The translations under genes and the position numbers were made by a program. Shown here one piece after another: positions 12,140 through 35,133 of a stretch of DNA of 35,185 bases. A model generated the notes under the pieces. The model was not told the origin of the DNA and made no database searches. It worked only from the letters and a program-made list of their open reading frames with translations. This stretch comes from Deltaproteobacteria bacterium (lineage in GTDB: Bacteria > Desulfobacterota > DSM-4660 > Desulfatiglandales > HGW-15), in assembly GCA_016931115.1 (NCBI GenBank), contig JAFGFM010000016.1:1-35185 (forward strand). Direction: 5' to 3'. The first letter of the stretch is position 1; every line of letters starts with the position of its first letter.

Positions 12140-13558
12140 ATGACGTGTTATTGTAATCGGATAAAAGAGAAGCCTGACAGGCCGAAAGATGAATGCGGGA
12201 TATTTGCAATATATCACCATGAAGATGCGGCAAAGCTGACCTATTTTGGTCTTTATGCACAGCAGCACAGGGGGCAGGAGAGCGCCGGAATTGTGGTATC
12301 AGATGGCGAGTGTGTTGTTGAGCATAAGGCAATGGGCCTTGTGCCTGATATCTTTAATGACAAGATACTTTCTGGTCTTAAGGGTAACATTGCTCTGGGT
12401 CATGTAAGGTATTCAACAACAGGCTCTTCATTATTGGCCAATGCACAGCCCTTCAGGATAAAACATGGAGGTAAATGCATTGCAATGGCCCACAATGGTA
12501 ACCTTGTAAATGCATTCACTATCCGTAAAGAACTTGAAGATGACGGCTCTATATTTCAGACCAGTATGGACAGTGAGGTGGTGCTTCACCTTGTTGCAAG
12601 GTCCATGAAAAAGGGGCTTGAAAAGGCGATGCAGGATGCTATGTCCAGGATAAAAGGGGCCTACTCTCTTGTGCTTATGACAGAGGATACACTTATTGCC
12701 GTGCGCGACCCCAATGGTTTCAGGCCCCTGTGCCTCGCACGGCTGAATGGAGGCTATGTTATTGCATCAGAGACATGCGCCCTTGATCTGGTTCAGGCAG
12801 AATATATAAGGGATGTTGAACCGGGTGAAATCATTATTGTAAACAAGGATGGCTTAAGGAGTATAAAGTCCTCTGAACCTGTAAGAAAGGCCCATTGTAT
12901 TTTTGAGCTTATCTACTTTGCGCGGCCTGACAGCTCTGTCTTTGGCCAGAATGTATATATGTTTCGTAAAAAACAGGGGCAGCTTATGGCAGAGGAGTTT
13001 CATGTGGATGCTGACCTTGTTATGCCATTTCCCGATTCAGGCAACTATGCGGCTATAGGTTTTGCGCAGGCATCTACCATACCGCTTGAAATGGGTGTTA
13101 TCAGAAACCATTACATTGGCAGGACATTTATCCAGCCCTCCCAGACCATGCGCGACTTTGGGGTCAAGGTTAAGCTCAACCCGGTAAAGGAACTGTTCAA
13201 GGGTAAACGTGTATTAATTATAGAAGATTCTATAATAAGGGGGACAACCTCAAAGACCAGGATCGAGACGCTGCGTAATATTGGGGCAAAGGAGATACAC
13301 ATGCTTGTATCATGCCCGCCCCACAGGTTTCCATGCCACTATGGCATAGACTTTTCAACAAAGGGTGAGCTTATTGCTGCACAGAAGTCTGTTGATGAGA
13401 TAAGGTCATTTATCGGTCTTGACAGCCTCGGCTACTTAAGTATTGATAACCTTGTAAAGGCTACCCATATACCAAGAACAGACCTGTGTCTTGCATGCTT
13501 TGACGGCAATTATCCGGTACCTGTTGATGAAGAAACAGGGAAGTTTTCAATGGAGTAA
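12140..13558 (+). CDS. purF: Amidophosphoribosyltransferase (Fe-S type)
   Basis: This 472-residue protein begins with a short propeptide of 18 residues and an Ntn-type nucleophile C19 (DECGIFAIYHHE). It continues with the glutaminase motifs (QHRGQESAGI, GHVRYSTTG, HNGNL). The C-terminal PRPP-binding loop reads VLIIEDSIIRGTTS. Cysteines at CIFELIYFARPDS, PCHYGID and LCLAC near the C-terminus match the four [4Fe-4S] ligands of the Bacillus-type enzyme. It catalyses the first committed step of purine synthesis: PRPP plus glutamine to phosphoribosylamine. Propeptide removal and cluster insertion are expected for activity. It sits 12 nt after carB, so purine and pyrimidine entry enzymes may share a transcript. 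Confidence 0.96.
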   Translation: MTCYCNRIKEKPDRPKDECGIFAIYHHEDAAKLTYFGLYAQQHRGQESAGIVVSDGECVVEHKAMGLVPDIFNDKILSGLKGNIALGHVRYSTTGSSLLANAQPFRIKHGGKCIAMAHNGNLVNAFTIRKELEDDGSIFQTSMDSEVVLHLVARSMKKGLEKAMQDAMSRIKGAYSLVLMTEDTLIAVRDPNGFRPLCLARLNGGYVIASETCALDLVQAEYIRDVEPGEIIIVNKDGLRSIKSSEPVRKAHCIFELIYFARPDSSVFGQNVYMFRKKQGQLMAEEFHVDADLVMPFPDSGNYAAIGFAQASTIPLEMGVIRNHYIGRTFIQPSQTMRDFGVKVKLNPVKELFKGKRVLIIEDSIIRGTTSKTRIETLRNIGAKEIHMLVSCPPHRFPCHYGIDFSTKGELIAAQKSVDEIRSFIGLDSLGYLSIDNLVKATHIPRTDLCLACFDGNYPVPVDEETGKFSME

Positions 13559-13571
13559 AAATAAATCCATC

Positions 13572-14615
13572 ATGCCCGAATTTATTTTTGCAACCTGTCT
13601 GCCACGCTCAATGCCCTACCTTAAACGCGAACTGGCGCGAACGCGCCCGGATTTGCGGTTGGCATACTCCCGGCCCGGATTGATCACGATGCGCACAGAT
13701 GCTGTGCCACCGGGCCTCAGCACACCCGAGCCGCAAGCTGTTTTTGCGCGAGCCACCGGGCGCTCACTGGGCTTTGCTGACTCGCTTGATCGCATTGTTG
13801 AATTAGCGGAATTGGTAGCAGCCCCGGAAATCAGGGTTCACGTATTCGCGCGGGACCCGGTCAAACCCGATAAACAGATTCCAGACTACGAGGGTATAAA
13901 AAGGTGGCGCGACAGCGTCCGCGGGCAACTCGGTACCCGCGTGTTAGACGGCGATGATGCAAAGCCAGGTGACACTGTTCTCGACGTAGTGCTTCCGCCA
14001 CCAGGGATGACCGACCCGATCATGGTTGGTTGGCACATACACGACCATTGGCGCGGTGCTGCGCCCGGTGGTGTTTGTCAGGTCCCGGTTCCGCCGGAGG
14101 TGCCCTCACGGGCCTACGCAAAGATCGAGGAAGCGCTCCATTGGTCAGCTCTTGAGCTCCATGAGGGTGATGTCGTAGTCGAAATCGGGTCAGCCCCGGG
14201 CGGGGCAGCAATGGCGCTGCTGCAACGCGGAGCCAATGTTATAGGCATCGACCCCGCACGCATGGATCCCCGTGTGCTCGATTGGCATGGGGCATGCGGA
14301 ACTTTCCGTCATATCAGCAACTATGCAGAGCGCCTGCGCACACGCGATCTGCCTGCAAAGGTCGATTGGCTTGTGCTCGACGCTAACATCGCACCGCATC
14401 GTGCGCTCGTTGCACTCAAGCACCTGATGTCACTGCGAGGGAACTCTATACGCGGGCTGTTACTCACACTTAAGCTCCACGATGACGGCGTAATTGAGGA
14501 TTTGCCAGTGTTATTTGCTCAGATTAGCGAGCTTGCAGGGGCTATTTCGTTGCGCGCAACCCAGCTCCCGAGTGCACACCAGGAAGTGGTGGTGTGGGTC
14601 CAGCGCTCGCTATAA
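13572..14615 (+). CDS. RlmM-like SAM-dependent 2'-O-ribose RNA methyltransferase (likely acquired)
   Basis: Read from ATG 13572, the 347-residue protein resembles the bacterial RlmM/FtsJ-fold methyltransferases. Its N-terminal part is THUMP-like. PSRAYAKIEEALHW precedes the Rossmann domain with the SAM loop VVEIGSAPGGAA. The order of K (AKIEE), D (VLDAN), K (LTLKLHD) and E (HQEVVVWV) fits the K-D-K-E tetrad of 2'-O-methyltransferases. RlmM of E. coli modifies 23S rRNA at C2498; the target here is inferred only. The gene is visibly richer in GC and in GCG, CGC and CCG codons than both neighbours and has no clear Shine-Dalgarno. It begins 13 nt after purF. Together these suggest horizontal acquisition. 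Confidence 0.7.
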   Translation: MPEFIFATCLPRSMPYLKRELARTRPDLRLAYSRPGLITMRTDAVPPGLSTPEPQAVFARATGRSLGFADSLDRIVELAELVAAPEIRVHVFARDPVKPDKQIPDYEGIKRWRDSVRGQLGTRVLDGDDAKPGDTVLDVVLPPPGMTDPIMVGWHIHDHWRGAAPGGVCQVPVPPEVPSRAYAKIEEALHWSALELHEGDVVVEIGSAPGGAAMALLQRGANVIGIDPARMDPRVLDWHGACGTFRHISNYAERLRTRDLPAKVDWLVLDANIAPHRALVALKHLMSLRGNSIRGLLLTLKLHDDGVIEDLPVLFAQISELAGAISLRATQLPSAHQEVVVWVQRSL

Positions 14616-27599: not shown

Positions 27600-27613
27600 T
27601 CTGGAGATTATTG

Positions 27614-29128
27614 ATGTTGACAATATTTGCATTGCCTATATACATAATATGCATGACTGCTAAAAAACTATCATCAGAAGAGAGGGCGTTTTTCAGGCTT
27701 GTGTCCGGTGCAGCGCTTTCAAACCCGTTCAGTGATGAAAGGACCGAACTGGATATCAGGATAGCAGAGTGTCCGCCTGATGCCCCTTTAACAGAGCGCC
27801 TTGAATGCGTTTTTTTAAAAATGAAAGAACGTATAGAGAAACTTGAAAAAGAGGGCAGGGCAGATATCAGCCTTTATAGCGGTGATGACAGGGTCATTAT
27901 TCAGAGCACCTTTCTCTTTGAGATCTTCTTTATTTTTACAAGAGGGTTTGATGACCTTATTGCAAGGCAAATAAAGGCAGGGGAGTCGACCTGTGTAGTT
28001 CCATTCGGCAGGGATGCCATCTCATTATTTATCAAAAGGGGTTTTAGCCCTGATGATGCATGCAGGTTCTTTGCCATACTTTACCAGTTAAAACGGGCCT
28101 ATTACTTTGTTGACAAGGCCCTCATAGGTCAGAGCCCCTGCATGAGAGATTTGAGAAGGCATCTGTGGAACAATGTCTTTACATACGATATCCGCCTTTA
28201 CGAACGCTTTCTCATGAACCGGATGGAAGATTTTTCCACCATGATCCTCGGCGATACAGGCACAGGCAAAGGCACAGCCGCGGCAGCAATAGGCAGGTCA
28301 GGTTTTATACCCTATAACCCTGATAAGAATATTTTTACAGACAGCTTTATGAATAGTTTTATATCTATCAACCTCTCCCTGTATCCTGAAACACTTATAG
28401 AGTCTGAGCTTTTCGGGCACAAGAAGGGGGCGTTTACTGGGGCAATTAATCAGCACGAGGGCATATTCAGTAGATGCAGGCCACATGGTTCAATATTGCT
28501 GGATGAGATAGGCGATGTGTCACTTCCTGTCCAGCTTAAACTATTACAGATCCTCCAGGAGCGTACTTTCAGCCCGGTCGGAAGCCATGAAATCTTAAGG
28601 TTTAACGGCAGGGTGATTGCCGCAACCAATAAATCGATCAAGGAGCTCAGGGGTAGTGGTTTGTTTCGGAGCGATTTTTATTACAGGCTCTGCTCTGACT
28701 GTATTGTTGTGCCATCTCTTTCTGAACGTATACAGGAGGACCCTGATGAATTAAGGCTGATCCTTGAAAATATAGTAAGCCGTCTGACAGGTGAAAAATC
28801 AGAAGAGCTTGTTTCTCTGGTAATTGAATCCCTTGAAAAGAGTCCGGGCAGGGATTATTCATGGCCGGGTAATGTGCGCGAACTTGAGCAGGCTACGCGC
28901 AGGATACTCCTTACAAGGGAATACAGAGGCGAAAATGTGTCATCTTCAGGTGGAATAAAGGAGATGCTGAAAAATGGGATAGATTCCCAGAACATTGACT
29001 CCCAGGAGCTTATAAGCGGGTACTGCGCCCTCCTGTATGAGAGGTATGGAACCTATGAAGAGGTTGCCCGCAGGATGAATCTCGACCGCAGGACAGTAAG
29101 AAGATATATAGAGTTATATCAAGGTTGA
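27614..29128 (+). CDS. Sigma-54-dependent activator with unrecognised N-terminal domain
   Basis: Read from ATG 27614 (GGAG seven bases before it) the protein has 504 residues. ATG 27653 would remove a hydrophobic 13-residue start and give MTAKKLSSEERAFF, which looks more like a natural N-terminus. About 195 residues of unrecognised sensory domain come first; it is not a receiver, GAF or PAS type that I can see. The AAA+ domain has Walker A GDTGTGKG (213-220), the sigma-54 contact loop GAFTGA (272-277) and Walker B GSILLDEI. An alternative helix-turn-helix closes the protein (YEEVARRMNLDRRTVRRYI). It should open sigma-54 promoters using ATP. The divergent radical SAM gene has such a promoter; the symporter downstream does not show one. 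Confidence 0.88.
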   Translation: MLTIFALPIYIICMTAKKLSSEERAFFRLVSGAALSNPFSDERTELDIRIAECPPDAPLTERLECVFLKMKERIEKLEKEGRADISLYSGDDRVIIQSTFLFEIFFIFTRGFDDLIARQIKAGESTCVVPFGRDAISLFIKRGFSPDDACRFFAILYQLKRAYYFVDKALIGQSPCMRDLRRHLWNNVFTYDIRLYERFLMNRMEDFSTMILGDTGTGKGTAAAAIGRSGFIPYNPDKNIFTDSFMNSFISINLSLYPETLIESELFGHKKGAFTGAINQHEGIFSRCRPHGSILLDEIGDVSLPVQLKLLQILQERTFSPVGSHEILRFNGRVIAATNKSIKELRGSGLFRSDFYYRLCSDCIVVPSLSERIQEDPDELRLILENIVSRLTGEKSEELVSLVIESLEKSPGRDYSWPGNVRELEQATRRILLTREYRGENVSSSGGIKEMLKNGIDSQNIDSQELISGYCALLYERYGTYEEVARRMNLDRRTVRRYIELYQG

Positions 29129-29238
29129 CAAAGAAAAGAGGTTGAGATACAGAATAAAGCGCTTTTCGTCCGGTTTTCTAAAAATATGATAAAAAGATGG
29201 CAACAAAAGAATAAAACCCGACTTTTACAGGTGTCAGT

Positions 29239-29268
29239 CAGATTGTTACTGTTAACAGATACAATCTG
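29239..29268. promoter_or_regulatory. 30-nt near-perfect palindrome upstream of the symporter
   Basis: The segment pairs with its own reverse complement at 26 of 30 positions, centred on GTTAAC, with arms cagattgt and acaatctg. It lies 55 nt before the symporter start with no following T tract, so an operator is more likely than a terminator. Confidence 0.5.
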
Positions 29269-29323
29269 TTTATACTCGTTTTTAATGAAACAGGTATCAT
29301 ATCTTTGCTAGGGAGGGAATTGA

Positions 29324-30790
29324 ATGTCAACAGCGTTAATAATTGCAATCGGTTATTATGTTATCCTGAGTGTCGGCACCAGCATCTACCTCAAAAAAAA
29401 GGTAAAATCCGGCAGTGATTTTGTTACCGGAGGAGGGCATACACTTGCCTGGCCCCTGATTACAGCCGGTTTTGTGCTTGCGCCCCTTGGGAGCGGCCAT
29501 ACCCTTTCACTCTGGGAGGCATCAGCAGGTTTCGGGGCATCTGTGTTATGGTGGGGTATCATAGGGGGCGGTCTGTTTGTGCCCCTGTTTTTGTTATGGT
29601 TTGGCCCCTGGTTCAGAAGGCTTCATGTCCAGACATTCCCTGAAGGTATGGGTAAAATATTTGGCGAGGGCATAGGCTGGGTTATTTCAGCGGTATTTCC
29701 TGCGCAGCTCATCGGTATCTGTATAGCTGAGATACTGGCTACTGCAACAGCATTTTATGCCCTTGGCGGTGAGGCCATTCCATTTAATCCCCACTGTATA
29801 CTTCTCGCGGTTGGCCTTACAATCCTTTATATCATAGTAGCGGGTCTACAGCAGGTGGCATGGATGAATTTTGCCAACGCCATAATGCTGATACTTGGTT
29901 CATTTGCCGCTGTGTTTGCAACCGGAAGGTGGCTTAACAACGGTCATGGAGGATGGGAATCGGTGGCTGATTTCTATTCAAATGCAAATTTGCCTTTGCA
30001 TCTGAATATCCTTAATTTTTCACCGGATGTGATGTATGCACTGCTTATCCCATGCCTGTTTCTTCTTGTGTTCATGTGCAGTGCATCCCAGGCACAGTAC
30101 CAGCCGCTTCTTCTTGCAAGGTCTGAATCGGATATCAGAAAGGGCGTCTTCTGGGCATCCTTTGTCAATAGCCTTGTGACATATCCGTGGGTAATACTGG
30201 CGCTGGTTGGTATGTCTGTTACAGGGATTGCTGCTGCCGGCGCTAAACTCTCTGTACCTAAACTGGCATTAATGGCGCTTCCCCAGTGGATGGTAGGTAT
30301 ATTGATGATTGCTCTTCTGGCTGCAACCCTTTCAACCAGTTCCCAGCTCATACTGGCTTCATCTCATATGATTGTCCATGATATTTTCAAGAGGGCGGTA
30401 AACCCCAATATGAGTGACAGGACATTCCTGATACTTACAAGGGTCATGATCTTTGTATGCGCCATTATCGTTATTATCCCGGCCCTTAAGCTCCAGCTTG
30501 TGCTTTCCATATTCTTCTGGACATTTTCTTTTGGCATACCTGTGTTTGGCGTTTACCTGATAGGTATGGTGTGGAAGGTCAACAGGTTTGCGGCATGGGT
30601 GACCCTGCTGGCTGGTTACGGTGCAAATTTTCTGTGGACATTTGCATCACCCACATGGCTGCCGGATTTTATGAGCCTGAACGTATATCCGACAACATTT
30701 GCCACGGTTTTCTTTGGTATTGTCCTGAATCTTATTTTACCGGGAAAGCCTGGTTATTTGCGTCAGTTAAAAATGGCAGAGCAGAAGTAG
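29324..30790 (+). CDS. Sodium:solute symporter (SSS family)
   Basis: This 488-residue integral membrane protein has about 13 predicted helices. It shows SSS features: a YYVILSVGTSIYLKKKVKSGSDFVTGG start and the LAATLSTSSQLILASSHMIVHDI helix, whose serines and threonines fit the Na2 sodium site. The GSGHTLSLWEASAGFG stretch is part of the core. It imports an organic solute with sodium; substrates in the family include proline, pantothenate and carboxylates, and the sequence does not settle which. GGGAGG precedes the ATG. Two tiny membrane-protein genes follow 42 nt and 29 nt later, likely in the same transcript. Confidence 0.85.
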   Translation: MSTALIIAIGYYVILSVGTSIYLKKKVKSGSDFVTGGGHTLAWPLITAGFVLAPLGSGHTLSLWEASAGFGASVLWWGIIGGGLFVPLFLLWFGPWFRRLHVQTFPEGMGKIFGEGIGWVISAVFPAQLIGICIAEILATATAFYALGGEAIPFNPHCILLAVGLTILYIIVAGLQQVAWMNFANAIMLILGSFAAVFATGRWLNNGHGGWESVADFYSNANLPLHLNILNFSPDVMYALLIPCLFLLVFMCSASQAQYQPLLLARSESDIRKGVFWASFVNSLVTYPWVILALVGMSVTGIAAAGAKLSVPKLALMALPQWMVGILMIALLAATLSTSSQLILASSHMIVHDIFKRAVNPNMSDRTFLILTRVMIFVCAIIVIIPALKLQLVLSIFFWTFSFGIPVFGVYLIGMVWKVNRFAAWVTLLAGYGANFLWTFASPTWLPDFMSLNVYPTTFATVFFGIVLNLILPGKPGYLRQLKMAEQK

Positions 30791-30832
30791 AGAAAAATAA
30801 AATAAGAGAAATCTATAAAAGGAGATAACAAT

Positions 30833-30940
30833 ATGGCATGGCCCTGGAAAATACTCTTAATACAATTTGTAATAACTATGGGAATGGCTGTGGTTTTTTA
30901 TATAATCTGGAGACTCGCACATCCAGGTAAAAAATGGTAG
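30833..30940 (+). CDS. Single-helix membrane microprotein, 35 residues
   Basis: The ATG has GGAG eight bases upstream (30821-30824), a well-placed ribosome binding site. The product begins MAWPWKILLIQFVITMGM and continues to a single hydrophobic helix, ending in a positive tail (AHPGKKW). The charge pattern suggests the C-terminus in the cytoplasm. It lies 42 nt after the symporter. I do not recognise a family. The nearest known idea is the short single-helix accessory subunits reported beside SSS transporters. Coding status is inferred from the ribosome binding site, the helix and the conserved spacing. Confidence 0.6.
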   Translation: MAWPWKILLIQFVITMGMAVVFYIIWRLAHPGKKW

Positions 30941-30969
30941 GTATTGAAATATAAACAGAGGAGAATCTT

Positions 30970-31083
30970 ATGCCTATATTAGATGCAGCAATAGCTATTT
31001 ATCTAATCGGAATCATGGTTGTACTGGGGCTGATCATATCGATAGGAGCAATCAGACAAAAATTAGGTAAAAATAAAAAATAG
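30970..31083 (+). CDS. Second single-helix membrane microprotein, 37 residues
   Basis: The ATG has GAGGAG six bases upstream (30958-30963). The product starts MPILDAAIAIYLIGIMVV, contains one hydrophobic helix (about 8-28) and ends in a lysine-rich tail (RQKLGKNKK), again placing the C-terminus inside. It follows the first microprotein after 29 nt, and an intrinsic terminator closes the unit 35 nt later. Its charged tail and size resemble small symporter subunits, but no family match could be tested. Confidence 0.62.
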   Translation: MPILDAAIAIYLIGIMVVLGLIISIGAIRQKLGKNKK

Positions 31084-31118: not shown

Positions 31119-31155
31119 AGGGGCATAGGATCAAGGGTCTATCGCCCCTTTTTTA
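31119..31155 (+). terminator. Terminator after the symporter-microprotein unit
   Basis: aggggcatag pairs with ctatcgcccct (one bulged base), followed by TTTTTT. It separates the symporter unit from the ZupT-like gene, whose start is only 13 nt later. Confidence 0.65.
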
Positions 31156-32109: not shown

Positions 32110-33096
32110 TTATACCACTGCTGTCCAAATCTGAATATAGAGTGCGTTCCCAGATTTGCCCACAAAGGTTTTGACTCTAAGGTTCTGTTTTAATGCCTTA
32201 AAAAACAGTTCAATTTGCCATTGATCCTTATATATGGCTGATATAGTGGTTGCCCCAAACTCAAGGTGATTTGTAAGAAGCACTATCTAACATTCATTCT
32301 CCTTGTCCCAGACGACTACTTTACGCAGGATATGAGGGTAATCTTTTTTGGCATAAAAGCCTGAAAACTTGATGAGTTCATCGGATATAATATTGCGATT
32401 TTTTGATGGAGCAAGAACTTTAATTACTTCATAATCTGCATTCTCTTTTAAGCGCGTGACAAAATAGATTCCATTTGCTGTCCAATATGCAAAGAGACCA
32501 TAATCATTATAACCCCTATCCATGGCAATAATGGAGCCTGGCGCTAATGGTATTTTTCTGGCAATAGTAACATCATGTTTTCCTCCATTTGTTATGCAGG
32601 CATATGTTGGTAAATATCCATCATGATCTAATAGAAGATGCAATTTAACCGCTCCTTTTGTCCTGCGGAAATTTGCCCATGGAAACAGGGATAAGCATAG
32701 AGAAATTGTACTGCTATCCAGAGAAAGCAGTTTATTCTTGAAACTAAATTTATGTTTACCGGGCATCGATGTTTTACATAGGGAAAGAGTATCATAGAAA
32801 AGATCCCGGAACATCTCCCATGGCCTGTTAATATTTGCATAAGATAATGTGGACTTCTTTGGGGCATCTTTCATCCCTAAGTGACGAAGCTTTCCCTCGC
32901 AGCAAAGTAGTCCACTGCAGATTTCTCTAAGGCTTTTTGCTTGTGCTATCTGGCAGAATAGCATGGCTATAAAATGATCCCAGGAACTAAATCCTTTAGA
33001 ATAACGTTCCGCTTTAAAATTAATCACTAACCGATAAAATTGTTTCTTATTAAATACAGCTATTAGTTGACTGAATAAGCTCGAACATCGTTCCAT
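32110..33096 (-). pseudogene. IS4-family transposase, broken by an in-frame stop and 3'-truncated
   Basis: The start is the ATG at 33096 (AGGAGG just upstream; MERCSSLFSQLIAVF). It shows an IS4-type DDE transposase: N-terminal DUF4372-like part, D in LLSLDSST and D in AMDRGYND. A TAG stop at 32287-32289 interrupts the frame after DKENEC. Reading on in the same frame gives IVLLTNHLEFG and YKDQWQIELFFKALK, which is the Y-R-E-K signature with the catalytic Glu but with Q in place of R. The next stop at 32110 removes the usual C-terminus. So the catalytic Glu is lost in the normal product and the gene is dead. Confidence 0.85.
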
Positions 33097-33200
33097 GTGT
33101 TTGTCCTCCTTTTGTTTTTGGGAATTCGTTTTGTCTGATAACTTACGATCTCCCATAAGGAGGACTTTTTCAAACAGGCCAGGACCCAATATCCAAATTT
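32110..33200 (-). mobile_element. Remnant of an IS4-family insertion sequence
   Basis: The segment contains a decayed transposase gene and its upstream flank up to about 33200, where the sequence abruptly becomes a RAYT gene. The left end is not defined, because the gene is cut short, so no terminal inverted repeats or target duplication could be identified. Confidence 0.6.
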
Positions 33201-33980
33201 ATGAGGCGCCTTCTTACCGGATATGTCATAGGATTTAACCACAGGCATAAACGCAGAGGTCAACTATTTCAGAACAGGTATAAATCAATAGTATGCCAGG
33301 AAGAAAACTACCTTAGAGAACTGACACGGTATATCCACGTGAACCCTATTCAAGCTAAAATAGTTAAGACTCTTGATGAATTAAAGCATTACAAATATAC
33401 CGGTCACAGTGCTTTAATGGGGAATGTTGCAAGAGAATGGCAGGATAAAGAATATGTTCTCAGGTATTTTGGGAAGAATATCAGGAGAGCTAGAAAAGAG
33501 TATGAATTATTTGTTGAAGCCGGATTAAATGAAGGCAGGAAGAAAGAATTGACCGGAGAAGGTTTAATTCGGAGACTTGGAGGATGGGTAGGGGCAAAGG
33601 AAAAGCTTAGAGTTGGTGTTCACATAATGAGTGATGAAAGGATACTTGGGGATTCAGATATTGTGGATATCATAATGACCCAATCTGAATAAAAATTTGA
33701 AAGAAGACATCGTCTTAAACGAAAAGGGTATGATCTTGATTGTATAGCAGAACGGGTAGCTGAAGTATTGGGGATTGAACCTAAGGAAGTATATATTAAA
33801 GGTCGGCAAGGGTGGAAAGTAAAGGCAAGGAGTCTATTATTTTACTGGGCTTCGAGGGAATTGGGCATATCACATACTGACCTGGCAAAAAGGCTGGAAC
33901 TAACCATAGCAGCTGTTGGTTTCTCAGTGGAACGTGGAGAATTGCTTGCAAAAGAAGGTAACTACTTTCTGGAAAAATAA
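33201..33980 (+). pseudogene. REP-associated tyrosine transposase (RAYT), 5'-truncated with an in-frame stop
   Basis: The frame opens exactly at MRRLLTGYVIGFNHRHKRRG, which matches the middle of RAYT (Y1/HUH-type) proteins: RGQLFQNRYKSIVCQEENYL and LTRYIHVNPIQAKIV follow. The N-terminal third with the HUH motif is missing, and the IS4 remnant abuts at 33200. A TAA at 33690-33692 interrupts the frame; beyond it the same frame continues with RRHRLKRKGYDLDCIAERV and the helix-turn-helix extension (ELGISHTDLAKRL, FSVERGELLAKE), as in longer RAYTs. Without its HUH site it cannot be active. RAYTs are linked to REP-type palindromes, of which this window has several. Confidence 0.85.
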
Positions 33981-34235: not shown

Positions 34236-34673
34236 TTATACCCCATTAAACTGGCTTGAACCATAACTGTCAGCCAGCAGGCAGTGGCCAAAGTAAAAAG
34301 GTTTGTCCACCTTTTTCATAAATATGGGGGCATGCTGCACACCTGCGGGCAGGCAGATAATGGCTGCCGTGTTAATGGTATGCTTTTCCCACTCCTCTCC
34401 CATTGCTATCTCTGCCTCTGCTCCAAGCTCAGGCCAGTTCTCACTGCTTGCTGGTATAAAAAAGAGATATTCATCGCAGTTGTGGTTGTGGGGCGGGTCT
34501 GCCAGTACATGGGGGCTTAATATGCTTACGAAGTTGAAATTTATATCCACCTTGCCCAGCTTTTCCATATATTTCTGATCAAAACCGATATTAAGCATAT
34601 CTTTTTTCGGGAATACCGGGACCGTTACCTTTGCGCCACGGAGTACATATTTATCATATCTGGATTCAGCCAT
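34236..34673 (-). CDS. Cupin-like protein, paralogue 2
   Basis: I start at the ATG at 34673 (MAESRYDKYVLRG) because it has GGAG eight bases upstream and aligns with the start of the neighbouring paralogue (MSESKYGKYIVRG); an upstream ATG adds six residues. The 145-residue protein has a single cupin-type fold. Histidines and an acidic residue in PPHNHNCDEYLFF and the late histidine in GVQHAP could bind metal. The LGAEAEIAMGEE and KKVDKPFYF parts are shared with its neighbour. The role is unknown. Overall similarity suggests a tandem duplication, so the pair may form a heterodimer or act on related ligands. Confidence 0.65.
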   Translation of the reverse strand: MAESRYDKYVLRGAKVTVPVFPKKDMLNIGFDQKYMEKLGKVDINFNFVSILSPHVLADPPHNHNCDEYLFFIPASSENWPELGAEAEIAMGEEWEKHTINTAAIICLPAGVQHAPIFMKKVDKPFYFGHCLLADSYGSSQFNGV

Positions 34674-34722
34674 TTCTTTAATCTCCTTCAATACCTGATA
34701 TCAGACTGTAAAGTTAATGCCT

Positions 34723-35133
34723 TTATACGGGTTTTTTTACATATTCTTTAGCCATATAAATGCTGGAATAGATAACCGGTTTATCCACCTTTTTAAAATT
34801 GATCGGGCTGTGAACCATGCCTTTCGGTATTACAACTACAGTTGGTGTATTGATAACCTGTTTTTCACCCTCTATACCCATTGACACCTCTATCTCAGCG
34901 CCAAACTCCTCTGTGTCATTAGGGTTAGTCCCCATGAAGCAAAGGAATTCCTCAAAGTCATGAGAGTGTGCCTCTTCTATCCGGACCGGTTTTGATACAT
35001 AGTCCCATTTTATACGATGGTTTATACCTGCCCAGTCCTTTGGTTCACCAAAGGCAGAAGGTATTACTCCTGGCATGGATTCTTTGGAAGCAACCCCCCT
35101 CACAATGTATTTTCCATATTTGGATTCACTCAT
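34723..35133 (-). CDS. Cupin-like protein, paralogue 1
   Basis: This 136-residue protein starts at the ATG at 35133 with AAAGGAG upstream. Metal-binding-like residues are in EEAHSHDFEEFLCFMG (H, H, E) and GMVHSP (H), the usual four positions of a cupin site. FGAEIEVSMGIEGEKQVINTP and KKVDKP match the second paralogue, whose start is 49 nt further along the - strand. The two form one transcript read towards 34236. Upstream sequence ends at the window edge, so any further operon genes are outside. The substrate is not predictable from sequence. Confidence 0.65.
   Translation of the reverse strand: MSESKYGKYIVRGVASKESMPGVIPSAFGEPKDWAGINHRIKWDYVSKPVRIEEAHSHDFEEFLCFMGTNPNDTEEFGAEIEVSMGIEGEKQVINTPTVVVIPKGMVHSPINFKKVDKPVIYSSIYMAKEYVKKPV

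Follow-up and report, generated by a model that had tools for sequence, protein, structure and literature searches.

In a 35,185-nucleotide stretch of DNA from a Deltaproteobacteria bacterium (contig JAFGFM010000016.1, hereafter "the window"), a gene encoding a sodium/solute symporter of the SSS family is directly followed by two very small genes, whose products are termed here as micro1 and micro2. These microproteins behave as dedicated partners of one symporter lineage, with micro1 essentially restricted to it, and the three-gene unit probably encodes a three-polypeptide sodium-coupled importer in which both microproteins serve as permanent small subunits. SSS carriers are usually seen as single-polypeptide machines; if our reading is true, the study and annotation of such carriers have missed their partners. 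The finding adds two small-protein families that are absent from Pfam and NCBIfam, and possibly provides a bacterial model for the need of SGLT2 for MAP17.

Organization of the three-gene unit

The symporter gene (29324..30790, plus strand) encodes 488 amino acids with 13 predicted membrane helices. Its product is assigned to the SSS family (TC 2.A.21) by Pfam PF00474 (62.7 bits, cut-off 22.8), by profile matches to vSGLT, SGLT1/2, CHT1 and SiaT, and by models of its relatives that fit SSS structures at Z 27–35. The LeuT-type SSS fold was recovered in the model of a relative with 76% identity (L006), which superimposes on CHT1 with Z 35.2 (rmsd 3.0, 463 residues aligned), on SiaT with Z 34.6 and on SGLT1 with Z 33.1. 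An invariant S337-T338 aligns with the serine pair in TM8 of vSGLT as the Ser/Thr pair of the Na2 site; coupling to Na+ is putative.

The gene for micro1 (30833..30940, plus strand, 35 aa; MAWPWKILLIQFVITMGMAVVFYIIWRLAHPGKKW) starts 42 nt after the symporter, and that for micro2 (30970..31083, plus strand, 37 aa; MPILDAAIAIYLIGIMVVLGLIISIGAIRQKLGKNKK) follows after another 29 nt. Good ribosome-binding sites lie on the same strand 5′ of each ATG, in the regions 30817..30832 for micro1 (AAAAGGAGATAACAAT) and 30957..30969 for micro2 (AGAGGAGAATCTT). An intrinsic terminator is predicted 3′ of micro2 on the plus strand at approximately 31119..31155, formed by a GC-rich hairpin and a T-run (−15 kcal/mol, z −2.5), and the hairpin GGGGCAT...CCCTTTTTT is also found in L003, a locus of the same genus. 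Beyond this terminator begins the next gene, a frame for a ZIP-type transporter. The original prediction of a 35-codon and a 37-codon frame between an SSS symporter and a terminator therefore stands as made, including coordinates, lengths, gaps and ribosome-binding sites.

Each frame contains one hydrophobic stretch, with a best 19-residue Kyte-Doolittle mean of 2.5 in micro1 and 2.8 in micro2, in agreement with the prediction of one membrane helix each, and according to the positive-inside rule both would be oriented N-out/C-in. Lysine-rich tails had been proposed for both microproteins; the C-terminal tail of micro2 fits this description, while the tail of micro1, RLAHPGKKW, has only a moderate lysine content.

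Conservation of the microprotein pair behind the symporter

Relatives of the symporter were gathered from public genomes, mostly metagenome-assembled. The conservation of both frames after orthologous symporters, which had been put forward as a check of the prediction, was borne out in 30 of the 32 relatives (27 genomes), where the pair lies directly 3′ of the symporter in the same order and on the same strand. These relatives belong to Acidobacteriota, Deltaproteobacteria, Planctomycetes and Bacillota, and identity among the symporters ranges from 95% down to ~25%. The sample of genomes is uneven, and several loci can come from a single genome (four in G091, two in G166 and two in G652). The frames of the relatives are single-helix and 31–55 codons long, and in four loci with carriers of 25–28% identity (L026, L027, L043 and L044) they were recognised by position, ribosome-binding site and hydrophobicity, not by sequence. 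A purine-rich site precedes micro1 in 30/30 loci and micro2 in nearly all of them. Gaps vary from −4 to 66 nt between symporter and micro1, and from −4 to 171 nt between micro1 and micro2; genes overlap by 4 nt in L041 and L026, and a start abuts the preceding gene in L040, which suggests that the microprotein genes are translationally coupled in some relatives. The two remaining carriers (L032 and L045) have no detectable microprotein pair downstream, indicating that related carriers can manage without the microproteins. The pair-less carrier of L032 is found in the same genome as L030, a carrier with the pair.

A mechanical rule asking for two frames in tandem within 420 nt, of 28–60 codons, with a ribosome-binding site and a hydrophobic segment, found the pair at 29 of the 32 related symporters; L008 was missed because its two microprotein genes are 171 nt apart. 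Among 382 control ORFs drawn from the collected loci the rule fired three times, and the microprotein sequences show that these three belong to the same symporter family and had slipped past the control filter. The tandem pair is far beyond chance.

The association was also seen from the side of micro1. A micro1 profile run against 386 Acidobacteriota genomes matched the 12 symporter-bearing genomes with one copy each, 7 of which were not in the profile, and by coordinates these copies sit directly 3′ of the carrier; there was one extra, marginal match (E 0.004) within a 128-aa frame. Where wider flanks were available (21 loci), the carrier is the only large gene present throughout and the next commonest neighbours are found in 5. 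Since no other large gene exceeds this number, the link between microproteins and symporter is specific, and synteny is limited to the three genes and little else. No plasmid-borne relative of the symporter was found at E 1e-20.

Coding evidence and sequence features

Comparing the window with L003, differences at codon positions 1, 2 and 3 amount to 1, 0 and 11 in micro1, and to 9, 4 and 17 in micro2. This corresponds to 1.5 nonsynonymous changes in micro1 where 9.6 are expected if neutral (0/2000 simulations), and to 16 in micro2 where 22.8 are expected (p 0.0005). Six more pairs of loci point in the same direction, most of them significantly. The test by synonymous variation that had been suggested for these frames is thus positive for both, as changes are mostly synonymous and biased to the third position. 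Judged from these substitution patterns, both frames are under purifying selection, micro2 evolving faster than micro1, and both are almost certainly real, conserved coding genes.

The micro1 family follows the motif MxWPWKIL..QF..TMG.A.VFYIIWRL.H.GKKW, where a Trp at position 2–3 is near-universal and IWR or IWK closes the helix C-terminally in most members. The micro2 family follows D..IA.YL.GIMVVLGLI...GA.RQ, with A.YL...M..LG as the common motif of its alignment. Conserved residues do not clearly cluster on one face of either helix (p 0.2–0.96 for micro1 and 0.04–0.95 for micro2, by the angle chosen), and helical-face conservation is weak or absent. No model of Pfam or NCBIfam covers micro1 or micro2, and searches of Pfam, NCBIfam and PHROGs for a known family yielded scattered sub-threshold matches only, so both frames escape the libraries searched, much as the remark that they are too short for ordinary annotation had implied. 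OadG (TIGR01195) was rejected for micro1, which scores 13.7 bits where the cut-off is 36.05; among 28 members of the family only one gave a match. A common origin of micro1 and micro2 was rejected as well, as no relation between their profiles was found.

A three-polypeptide importer or transient regulators?

In the importer that we propose, the 13-helix SSS carrier would perform the transport, while micro1 and micro2 would each span the membrane once, oriented N-out/C-in, and would lie against the exterior of the carrier as permanent subunits, aiding its folding, stability and cycling. Two results weigh against this reading, namely the carriers of L032 and L045, which do without the pair, and the lack of clear clustering of conserved residues on a helix face. 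As the microprotein genes lie directly 3′ of the carrier gene, all three polypeptides would be made together from one mRNA. Physical association with the carrier, and a stabilising or tuning role, are both suggested by the analogy with MAP17 on SGLT2, and the regulated assembly or gating raised in the original prediction may also be considered.

There is a smaller but real chance that the microproteins are regulators, one or both binding the symporter temporarily and either inhibiting it or steering its degradation by FtsH, comparable to MgtR/MgtU on MgtB in Salmonella or SgrT on PtsG. Small single-helix proteins with such roles are known, including MgtR and MgtU as a pair on one transporter (PMC10710835), and opposite roles of the two microproteins would account for keeping both. 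However, 30 loci share a layout of one transcript with short or overlapping gaps, which would favour constant co-production and, with it, the permanent subunits of the proposed importer.

The sigma-54-dependent activator

Upstream of the symporter lies a gene for a sigma-54-dependent activator (27611..29128, plus strand) with a GAFTGA motif and a PF00158 match of 139.7 bits, which adjoins the unit without being conserved as part of it. It had been paired with the symporter into a compact solute-response module, where the activator senses a solute and controls the three-gene unit. Such control could hold locally beside the other readings, though we regard it as rather unlikely. The two genes are adjacent on the same strand, and between them lies a perfect 8-bp dyad, CAGATTGT-N14-ACAATCTG (29239..29268), both arms of which are kept in L003 with a different spacer, and which is a possible operator or activator site. 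On the other hand, no GG-N10-GC promoter was found in 29001–29400, including the region between activator and symporter, and the activator adjoins the symporter only in the window and in L003 (L005 and L008, with little upstream sequence, are outside this count), the neighbours in other relatives being unrelated. Because this adjacency is confined to the genus, the module is unsupported as a general property.

Structure models and the position of TM13

In some relatives the three genes share one reading frame, which allowed the stops to be read as glycine and the unit to be modelled as a fused chain. This was done for L006 and for L029, a carrier of ~39% identity to that of the window. The carrier was modelled at high confidence in both (pTM 0.84 and 0.83, respectively). 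The pLDDT of micro2 is 84–94 in both models, whose symporters share only ~39% identity, which speaks for the proposed importer although a lone helix may also reach this level, and that of micro1 is 45–68, reflecting poor placement. When the models are compared with the 14-helix carriers SGLT1/2, vSGLT and DUR3, the aligned range enters micro1 and ends at model residues 526–542. For placing micro2 the structure search was discarded, since it yields alignment ranges only and the rows that reach micro2 are distant folds of the APC superfamily.

From these alignments, which in both models put micro1 at or near the TM13 position, it could be argued that an SGLT-like carrier has been split, with its 14th helix (TM13) now encoded separately as micro1, and that micro2 is an additional helix resembling MAP17. 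We consider this improbable. The pLDDT of micro1 is low and covalent fusion biases it toward TM13, and the charge pattern of micro1 points to N-out/C-in, the reverse of TM13, which crosses the membrane in the outward direction; the linker and the opposite charge pattern together make the placement weak. Many SSS carriers also function with 13 helices, such as SiaT and CHT1, and no SSS–micro1 fusion gene was seen. Equally improbable is the broader form of this idea, a widespread and undescribed three-component SSS lineage whose carrier is completed by separately encoded helices, micro1 as TM13 and micro2 in the manner of MAP17.

Finally, the frames are short and were predicted by sequence alone, but that they are untranslated, with spacer or RNA signals being gene-like by chance, is scarcely credible given the third-position bias, the length, start, ribosome-binding site and protein motif kept across phyla, and the recovery of symporter genomes by the micro1 profile; Rfam found no family at the frames, which speaks neither way.

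Substrate and other features of the window

Neighbours scattered across the loci include alcohol dehydrogenases, short-chain dehydrogenases and LysR, and a UbiD/UbiX-like pair was recognised by eye in L087. A conserved metabolic neighbourhood from which the substrate could be read was sought and set aside, as the neighbours are scattered only; they give a hint that the symporter may take up an organic acid or an aromatic acid or catabolite.

Elsewhere in the window, two adjacent and related cupin-like proteins are encoded on the minus strand (34236–34691 and 34723–35133), of which the second has no Pfam match at 1e-5, and a relative is found near the symporter in L084. Two further features were noted by eye: downstream of the ZIP-type gene, a transposase-like frame on the minus strand adjoining a short REP-associated-transposase-like frame on the plus strand (32287–33692), and an rRNA 2′-O-methyltransferase-like frame (13491–14615) that overlaps the end of a purF-like gene.

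Comparison with known small partners of transporters

No paper describing two microproteins with an SSS carrier was found in the open-access library searched, and the closest systems each share only part of the arrangement. The symporter small accessory protein NF045580 is likewise very small, has one helix and is encoded next to an SSS symporter. It is however a single gene, which in the loci covered precedes its SSS gene, whereas the microproteins are downstream of theirs; its motif is different, and its SSS clade is another one (20–24% identity). A relation was rejected, as the NF045580 HMM gave no match at E 0.1 among 28 micro1 and 28 micro2 proteins, with a positive control scoring 75.9 bits, and as its profile showed no similarity to those of micro1 and micro2. 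In Desulfobacterota (L046–L061, at the locus centres) NF045580 lies directly upstream of this distinct SSS clade, representing a second, separate arrangement of SSS carrier and microprotein.

MetS (NF033493/NF033494), the small subunit of methionine/alanine importers of the NSS family, is similar in that it is short, has one helix and is co-encoded with an importer of LeuT fold. The MetS carrier, however, belongs to another family (NSS) and has one small subunit, and the MetS HMM NF033493 matched none of the 28 micro1 and 28 micro2 proteins (positive control, 45.3 bits vs 25).

MgtR/MgtU, MgtS, SgrT and AcrZ are also proteins of less than 50 aa that act on transporters as regulators, MgtR and MgtU being a small single-helix pair on one transporter (reviewed in PMC10710835). 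They differ in serving other transporter families, and none forms a pair directly behind an SSS carrier.

MAP17 (PDZK1IP1), the partner of human SGLT2/SGLT1, differs in being eukaryotic and not co-encoded, in being one partner instead of two, and in having no sequence relation that we could find to the microproteins. Yet its single helix packs on TM13 of SGLT2 and raises stability or activity, and the thermal stability of SGLT2 falls without it (PMC10803289). As a single-helix partner of an SSS-fold carrier, it resembles the partnership that we propose for micro1 and micro2.
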